A stretch of DNA of 20,305 nt from a virus. A model generated the notes under the pieces. It made no database searches and was not told where the DNA came from. It saw nothing but the letters and a program-made list of their open reading frames with translations. The stretch lies in the IMG/VR virus record IMGVR_UViG_3300042945_001056, positions 1 to 20,305 of that record; one strand, written 5' to 3'. Every line of letters begins with the position of its first letter. The stretch's first letter is position 1. Position numbers and translations under genes: made by a program. Positions 8,840 through 9,957 of this stretch are shown here, piece after piece.

Positions 8840-9957
8840 AGTATCTGTCGGTTTGCTCCGGCATCGAGGCGGCCAGCGTGGCGTGGCACCCGCTGGGGTG
8901 GCAACCAGTCGGATTTGCCGAGATTGAGAAATTCCCGTCGCAGGTTCTGGCACACCGGTTTCCGGGTGTGCCGAACTTCGGCGACATGACCAAATTTAAG
9001 GAGTGGAATCTTGAGCCTGGAACAATTGACCTTCTTGTCGGAGGAACTCCCTGCCAAGCCTTCAGCGTGGCAGGACTCCGAAAGGGACTCTCCGATCCGC
9101 GAGGAAACCTCGCGCTTACCTTCGTTGCAATGGTTGACCACTGCCGCCCCGAATGGGTTGTCTGGGAAAACGTCCCCGGTGTCCTGTCAAGCAACGGAGG
9201 ACGGGATTTTGGAGCCTTCCTCGGGGCGTTGGGGCAACTCGGGTATGGGTGGGCCTACCGAATCTTGGACGCTCAGTACTTCGGAGTGGCCCAGCGACGT
9301 CGTCGTGTCTTCGTTGTCGCGCACGCTTCAGGCGATCCACGACGTTGCGCCTCGGTACTATTTGAGCCGGAAAGCCTGTGCGGGGATCCTCCGCCGAGCC
9401 GAGAAGCGGGGCAAGAAACTACCGCCGATCCTGGAGCAAGCGCTTCAGGCGGTGGTCTCTGGGACACCGTAGGGGCGTTGTGCGCGGACACGCATCCTGG
9501 TGCTTACTCGGGGCAGGATGCGTACACGGGGCGAATCATCCCCAGCCTCTACGAATCACACCCGAATGACAGCCGGGTAACCGGCCCGGTTGAGCAATGC
9601 CCGACGGTATCGGCGCGATGGGGCACGGACGGGAACAACACCCCGCTGGTGACGGATGGAGAGGCCAGCGCGTTCTCGTGGCAATGCAGGGGCGATATGC
9701 GCGGGATGGTGCCACGCCCCACCGCGCAACTCCAACGGTGCCAGATCGAGGCGGTGATGACCGAGCCAGCGATGCACGTTCGGCGACTCACCCCGGTGGA
9801 GTGCGAGCGTCTCCAAGGATTCCCCGACGGTTGGACGGACATCCGACCGAATGGCAAGGACACTCCGGACTCGCCACGCTACAAGGCTCTCGGCAACAGC
9901 ATGGCGGTGCCGGTGATGCGGTGGATCGGGATGCGGATCGCCCAATCGGTACAATAG
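8836..9957 (+). CDS. DNA (cytosine-5) methyltransferase, Dcm family
   Basis: The 373-residue protein has the C5-methyltransferase motifs in order: motif I SVCSGIEAASVAW (5-17, SAM binding), motif IV GGTPCQAFSVAG (69-80) with catalytic Cys73, motif VI ENV (111-113), motif VIII QRRRRVFVVA (153-162), motif IX RRLTPVECERLQGFPDGW, and motif X RYKALGNSMAVPV near the C-terminus. It would transfer methyl groups to cytosine at a short site, probably to escape host restriction. The target region between motifs VIII and IX is present, but specificity cannot be read. It starts with GTG overlapping the zinc-knuckle gene. No restriction enzyme lies beside it, so it is an orphan. A second gene is encoded inside it in another frame (9011-9472). 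An intrinsic terminator follows. Confidence 0.95.
   Translation: MKYLSVCSGIEAASVAWHPLGWQPVGFAEIEKFPSQVLAHRFPGVPNFGDMTKFKEWNLEPGTIDLLVGGTPCQAFSVAGLRKGLSDPRGNLALTFVAMVDHCRPEWVVWENVPGVLSSNGGRDFGAFLGALGQLGYGWAYRILDAQYFGVAQRRRRVFVVAHASGDPRRCASVLFEPESLCGDPPPSREAGQETTADPGASASGGGLWDTVGALCADTHPGAYSGQDAYTGRIIPSLYESHPNDSRVTGPVEQCPTVSARWGTDGNNTPLVTDGEASAFSWQCRGDMRGMVPRPTAQLQRCQIEAVMTEPAMHVRRLTPVECERLQGFPDGWTDIRPNGKDTPDSPRYKALGNSMAVPVMRWIGMRIAQSVQ
9011..9472 (+). CDS. Overprinted phage protein nested in the methyltransferase gene
   Basis: This second frame (+1 relative to the methyltransferase) lies wholly inside the methyltransferase gene and encodes 153 residues. It starts with TTG behind an ideal SD, AAGGAG (8998-9003), seven bases upstream. 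The protein resembles a family I recognise from phages as a separate gene next to or overlapping Dcm genes: LTFLSEELPAKPSAWQDSE at the start, TEDGILEPSSGRWGNSGMG in the middle, then the signature RYYLSRKACAGILRRAEKRG and KKLPPILEQAL. Its function is unknown. The methyltransferase frame over the same bases contains motifs IV, VI and VIII, so both frames appear to be under selection. The bases for LFEPESLCGDPPPSRE in one frame encode the YYLSRKACAGILRRAEKRG signature in the other. Confidence 0.72.
   Translation: MSLEQLTFLSEELPAKPSAWQDSERDSPIREETSRLPSLQWLTTAAPNGLSGKTSPVSCQATEDGILEPSSGRWGNSGMGGPTESWTLSTSEWPSDVVVSSLSRTLQAIHDVAPRYYLSRKACAGILRRAEKRGKKLPPILEQALQAVVSGTP

Follow-up and report, generated by a model that had tools for sequence, protein, structure and literature searches.

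Two-polypeptide C5-cytosine DNA methyltransferases (MTases) have been described with M.EcoHK31I and M.AquI, and their smaller second polypeptide is needed for activity; in M.EcoHK31I, it is the small polypeptide that carries motif IX (PMC3404938). The beta polypeptide of M.EcoHK31I is read from a frame overlapping the one for alpha. In Streptococcus phage MM1, orf13 and orf14 are annotated as 'C5 methyltransferase alpha/beta subunit', and orf14 lies wholly inside orf13. A functional test of orf14 was not found in the open-access literature searched. Actinobacteriophage methylases, on the other hand, contain inserted out-of-frame HNH genes (PMC11855218), among them the ShiLan domain. Given the MM1 orf14 annotation and the two polypeptides of M.EcoHK31I, nested frames in C5-MTases are already known in kind. 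In the open-access literature searched, no report described a nested protein as generally conserved in phage C5-MTases, P1 Dmt among them; subscription papers were outside this search.

The nested frame and its host gene

The window analysed here is a whole stretch of viral DNA of 20,305 nucleotides (IMG/VR record IMGVR_UViG_3300042945_001056). It contains an orphan MTase gene of phage type, whose neighbours include the large terminase and a portal protein. The features of the locus are as follows:

8836-8839, + strand: GTGA, MTase start over the stop of a small upstream ORF (direct sequence reading)
8836-9957, + strand: orphan Dcm-like C5-cytosine DNA methyltransferase of phage type; 373 aa from a GTG start, with the full set of motifs I-X
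8998-9003, + strand: Shine-Dalgarno sequence AAGGAG of the nested gene, doubling as MTase codons Lys55-Glu56
9011-9472, + strand: nested gene, offset by +1 from the MTase frame; 153 codons opening with TTG and closed by TAG at 9470-9472
9023-9037, + strand: QLTFL motif at the N-terminus of the nested protein; the MTase reads T-I-D-L-L-V here
9047-9304, + strand: nested-protein linker, acidic and rich in Ser/Thr/Pro, with predicted disorder; same bases as MTase catalytic motifs IV, VI and VIII
9308-9460, + strand: basic three-helix module at the C-terminus of the nested protein (C-module), SLS..L...YYLS.KAC.GILRRA..RGK.LP..L..AL; overlaps the beginning of the MTase variable/target-recognition region
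9356-9415, + strand: nested signature YYLSRKACAGILRRAEKRGK, with A122, G125, I126 and R129 invariant in a 100-sequence alignment
9358-9405, + strand: MTase stretch LFEPESLCGDPPPSRE, on bases common to the nested signature (direct sequence reading)

The MTase matched PF00145 with E=1.6e-52 over profile positions 1-322 of 324 in one frame, as well as TIGR00675 (E=9.6e-51) and phrog_116 (E=4.9e-92). The preliminary description had claimed for 9011-9472 a TTG-started frame behind a perfect AAGGAG, wholly inside the MTase gene and on the bases of its catalytic motifs IV, VI and VIII. Coordinates, frame, Shine-Dalgarno sequence and motif overlap all held. The ORF is offset by +1 and entirely enclosed by the MTase frame, AAGGAG and TTG are spaced by 7 nt, and motifs IV (PCQ), VI (ENV) and VIII (QRRRR) are read from the same bases. 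The nested gene is almost certainly a genuine overlapping gene for a second protein of ~16.5 kDa; its translation is inferred, as no protein has been detected.

Upstream, the small ORF at 8674-8839 shows a zinc-ribbon-like pattern (CPSCG...CRCG) and had no Pfam match. Its TGA overlaps the GTG of the MTase in the GTGA at 8836-8839, and translational coupling of the two genes is a likely consequence, although one read off the bases only.

The consensus of 100 nested sequences begins with QLTF..EE, continues with an acidic Ser/Thr/Pro-rich stretch containing PSSGRW.NSGMGSPTE and ends with SLSD.LETGDVPQRYFLS.KAC.GILRRAEKRGK.LP..L..AL. AlphaFold2 predicted disorder for the first ~100 residues (pLDDT about 40), followed by the C-terminal three-helix module with a pLDDT of about 94 over the helices. 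Residues 1-99 have a pI of 4.2 and 35% S+T+P, while the C-module has a pI of 10.6. No Pfam, NCBIfam or PADLOC family matched the nested protein. Neither an HNH match nor any other Pfam match was obtained for the window protein or 100 family members, and HNH or another known domain was thus rejected. Fold searches with the whole protein and with the C-module (Foldseek, VIA-align) returned nothing above Z 3.9, including weak sigma-factor rows that were not interpreted. The best PDB match of the C-module reached only Z 3.6. Its two best viral structural matches were nested homologues themselves, namely gp104 of mycobacteriophage Thibault and a protein named cytosine-specific MTase.

The closest annotated relative is orf14 of MM1, which lies in the same +1 frame as the nested gene of the window and matched the window-family nested profile with 87 bits at positions 4-121 (118 residues of orf14), including VCSLSDILEEEVDERYFLSA. 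It differs from the window protein in that it ends early in the C-module, and the surrounding MTase falls outside the main clade. The window protein in turn matched phrog_16143, the family of MM1 orf14, with E=3.2e-5. The catalogue entry of this family reads 'DNA methyltransferase', a label apparently taken over from the surrounding gene. Bacteriophage P1 Dmt (L246:2719-3207) also contains a +1-frame nested ORF whose C-module, DADACLLSQVLEQTSIPQRYFLSSKACAGILRRGEKRRKSLPPLLQMALQSVAKA, is complete and scored 103.6 bits. Its N-terminal half is unlike that of the window protein and it starts later in the MTase; the P1 record annotates no such gene.

Motifs are not divided between two polypeptides as in M.EcoHK31I: the MTase of the window has motifs I-X all in its own frame, and none of these occurs in the nested protein. 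The ShiLan domain resembles the nested protein in being out of frame within a phage DNA methylase gene. It is, however, a homing element (195 aa, with an HNH domain) that was inserted and occurs patchily, whereas the nested gene is fixed, non-HNH and overprinted on the MTase core without any insert. An insertion of the ShiLan type is not seen here: the same bases encode the canonical MTase motifs IV, VI and VIII.

Open-frame statistics and constraint

Synonymous codon shuffling of the MTase region in the window, which is GC-rich, left the +1 frame open in 21% of the shuffles (P = 0.21), and the window sequence alone is therefore weak evidence. Homologous loci were fetched with the N-terminal 58 and the C-terminal 160 residues of the MTase, which both lie outside the overlap, so that the selection was free of the nested frame. 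The nested protein was present in 236 of 240 pooled loci, and the other four end too early in the overlap to judge. Its relative frame was always +1, with the exception of one split MTase (L226).

Across 176 MTase homologues, the nested frame contained 12 stops compared to 737 expected from synonymous shuffles. Upstream and downstream of the overlap, the same frame had as many stops as expected or slightly more, and so did the other frame everywhere. Nested-frame stops in homologues that keep the MTase had been named beforehand as a refutation. Among 76 non-redundant MTases picked by the parts outside the overlap, 11 such stops were counted versus 341 expected, which did not refute the claim. 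The nested frame was stop-free in 72 of the 76 (1.4 expected), while the other frame served as control and had 531 stops versus 545 expected. The remaining stops were confined to a P1-like sub-clade, in which the nested ORF begins later and the C-module is open in each member. As a further control, 19 C5-MTases without the module were taken from bacterial genomes and had 74 stops (74.2 expected), compared to 22 (249 expected) for the C5-MTases with the module from the same genomes. The homologue data are decisive for a second coding frame under purifying selection, as a matter of sequence statistics and not of a detected protein.

The divergence of the MTase at fourfold sites was 0.34 within the overlap and 0.68 upstream and downstream of it; it changed stepwise at codons 59 and 212, which bound the nested ORF. 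In MTase codons 181-205, divergence at positions 1/2/3 was 0.57/0.33/0.21, versus 0.28/0.21/0.60 in codons 301-373. With the pattern flipped in codons 181-205, it is the nested frame that governs evolution there.

The Lys and Glu codons that form the Shine-Dalgarno sequence were AAG in 104/115 (57.5 expected) and GAG in 137/156 (73.8 expected). They are under selection, and by these statistics the initiation signal is the nested gene's own and is itself selected. The N-terminal motif begins 1-4 residues after the start in 191/205 sequences. Parts of this N-terminus are to some degree dictated by the I-D-L-L-V-G-G of the MTase. The Gln of the motif, however, occurred in 147/176 sequences versus 41 expected from MTase codon usage, and the MTase residue at that place varies between S, T, A and P. 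The motif class as a whole was observed 103 times with 1.0 expected. It is mostly QLTF[W/L/S] in the family, with some QMSMF, QLSIF and QLTLF and with QLTMF in one locus (L175). In the QMSMF sub-group, the motif lies one codon earlier; that of MM1 is QMTLF.

Fourfold constraint, the choice of Shine-Dalgarno codons and the codon-position flip all favour a second coding frame. The claim that two conserved motifs share one DNA segment held as well, with the qualification that evolution over the last ~25 codons follows the nested frame. A recurrent phage family near Dcm genes had also been postulated, and this was right in part: the family is recurrent, but it is located inside the C5-MTase gene and out of frame, with rare broken or split exceptions. 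The earlier interpretation is supported, while translation of the nested protein, its binding to the MTase and any retargeting of the MTase remain inferred only. The evidence for translation is as strong as such evidence gets from sequence alone; it rests on neither ribosome profiling nor proteomics or other expression data and does not amount to a detected protein.

Distribution of the nested family and exceptional loci

Searches by tblastn with the nested protein retrieved 143 phage records, 531 plasmid records (mostly E. coli, matching a Dam-family MTase resembling P1 Dmt), over 585 stretches from IMG/VR and no fewer than 549 from bacterial genomes. A nested protein could be recognised in all 11 MTases of isolated phages that were opened, among them those of P1 (Dmt), ZF40, CcrBL9 and pneumococcal MM1. 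The ORF was in the +1 frame and comprised 112-168 codons with the module, being truncated in MM1. It was present even in phages not flagged by tblastn, namely Pectobacterium ZF40, Pasteurella Pm86, Caulobacter CcrBL9 and Streptococcus Javan102. The P1-like, ZF40 and Caulobacter-phage versions have little in common beyond the C-module.

In 29 bacterial genomes, 33/33 module matches lay inside matches to PF00145 (C5-MTase), and in nearly all of the further viral and genome loci the module overlay a C5-MTase, again in its +1 frame. Free-standing copies were found neither in these 29 genomes nor in the viral loci, save for broken or interrupted MTases (L249, L248, L245). In a tree of 64 MTases, the nested-bearing ones formed one group of 44, which included P1 Dmt, Pseudomonas TC7 and Cronobacter JK004; the MTase of MM1 was the exception outside this main clade. 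Several branches are long and fine placement is unsure.

The nested family thus has hundreds of members, in the textbook phage P1 and in phages and prophages of many bacterial phyla, and it is mostly absent from annotation because gene callers exclude full overlaps. Among the fully nested genes of tailed phages, this one appears to rank with the most widely conserved. Phage C5-MTases that were studied as single proteins may have been expressed together with an unnoticed second product.

A few loci deviate from the common arrangement. In the mycobacteriophages Thibault (L248:1823-3624) and Schatzie (L245:1827-3711), the MTase is interrupted by an HNH gene, and Thibault gp104 is the nested C-module annotated as a separate hypothetical protein. 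An internal deletion in Vibrio phage 1.088.O (L249:2910-3524) removed the central catalytic motifs of the MTase; the nested C-module was kept in the +1 frame. In L226:2219-3636, the nested C-module continues the reading frame of the N-terminal MTase half, and an ORF of its own, overlapping the first, encodes the C-terminal half. A stop breaks the MTase frame of a bacterial MAG (L267:2795-4064) in which the nested frame is intact (223 bits). Finally, in L383:1108-2065 and L314:2685-3687, one frame encodes MTase motifs I-VIII, while a second frame joins the nested protein to motifs IX-X as a single ORF. These two could be natural two-subunit enzymes or indels; they are 2 of about 450 loci and derived from metagenomes.

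Proposed role and rival explanations

Coding, purifying selection, selection on the initiation site and the obligate linkage to the MTase are shown by sequence statistics. As the nested gene is inherited only with the MTase, it most likely works with it. In the proposed mechanism, a second protein would be read in the +1 frame of the orphan phage MTase gene from its own Shine-Dalgarno sequence and start codon. Made from the message of the MTase, it would serve as an accessory to the enzyme, be it as subunit, adaptor or regulator, and bind the MTase, its DNA or both. The Q-L-T-F motif may be a docking peptide. The acidic linker, predicted to be disordered, is forced over the catalytic motifs of the MTase, and the C-module sits directly behind motif VIII, at the point of greatest tolerance in the MTase. 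Such a layout would be expected if the MTase is older and the new gene evolved within it.

An overlapping gene for an obligate partner of the MTase is the reading preferred here, with moderate confidence and with translation, complex formation and an effect on methylation all inferred. It is favoured because the tie to the MTase persists across large sequence distances, because free-standing copies are missing and because of the fusions to motifs IX-X in L383 and L314. The last argument is weak since these loci are metagenomic and may be indels. The subunit annotation of MM1 orf13/orf14 and the single main clade of nested-bearing MTases, MM1 apart, also count in favour. Three further points count against the partner model: besides the two that follow, the P1-like, ZF40 and Caulobacter-phage proteins resemble one another in hardly more than the C-module. 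Obligate linkage would also fit a protein that handles the consequences of m5C, for instance by inhibiting m5C-dependent restriction, and never touches the MTase. Moreover, the C-module has no known fold relative, so no binding partner is indicated.

The former objection leads to counter-defence, which remains possible. The nested protein would then shield the phage from systems provoked by its own m5C (Type IV of the McrBC/McrA type) or block restriction directly, and would be tied to the MTase because it is useful only when the DNA carries m5C. This would account for the obligate linkage without any complex, the module is small and basic, and phage MTases are themselves anti-restriction devices (PMC8637289). 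Against it, there was no similarity to PADLOC, Pfam or NCBIfam families, with the reservation that the PADLOC models cover defence and not counter-defence, and the free-standing copies that independent counter-defence genes usually have were not found. An autoregulator appears unlikely. Here, the basic C-module would bind DNA or mRNA, or nested translation would interfere with ribosomes in the MTase frame, and MTase levels would be kept safe with an effect analogous to that of the C proteins of restriction-modification systems. The high pI of the C-module, its three-helix fold and the strong Shine-Dalgarno sequence inside the MTase gene agree with this. However, fold and domain searches found no helix-turn-helix or other DNA-binding relative, and interference by itself is insufficient as the amino acid sequence is strongly conserved and not initiation alone.

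It is very unlikely that, by internal initiation and frameshifting in an EcoHK31I-like mechanism, the nested frame provides the N-terminal portion of an MTase split into two polypeptides. The single ORFs of nested protein and motifs IX-X in L383 and L314 speak for it, as does the existence of such enzymes (M.AquI, M.EcoHK31I; PMC3404938). Nevertheless, the MTase of the window and nearly all homologues are complete, a single frame encoding all of motifs I-X, and the nested ORF terminates at a stop of its own ahead of the variable region. Programmed frameshifting as source of the product is disfavoured because the nested ORF has its own selected Shine-Dalgarno sequence and start. That there is no second protein, and that MTase codon usage, protein conservation or a nucleic acid signal merely leaves the frame open, can practically be ruled out. 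The shuffling result for the window alone and the partly dictated N-terminus speak in its favour. In contrast, shuffles of the same MTases predict hundreds of stops and module-free MTases follow the expectation, the MTase wobble positions are least variable in codons 181-205, and the boundaries of constraint coincide with the ORF. A chance ORF or codon-usage by-product was rejected on the stop counts, the module-free controls and the codon-position flip, and an RNA element on the missing Rfam match and the codon-periodic pattern.

A bolder reading would make the nested protein an overprinted replisome-docking adaptor, the Q-L-T-F-like motif binding the host sliding clamp and the C-module binding the MTase or DNA. 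This is unlikely on present evidence. The clamp-binding pentapeptide is QL[S/D]LF or QxxLF; the window has QLTFL, the strict form was found in 1/176 sequences, and P1 and JK004 lack the motif. With QLTF[W/L/S] as the usual form, the link to the clamp is weak and at best a possible lead. If true, new phage DNA would be methylated at the fork before restriction enzymes arrive. The eukaryotic C5-MTase DNMT1 binds its clamp (PMC9690074), and the nested protein would be the equivalent of DNMT1-PCNA in phages, with its gene lying within the one for the very enzyme that it delivers.
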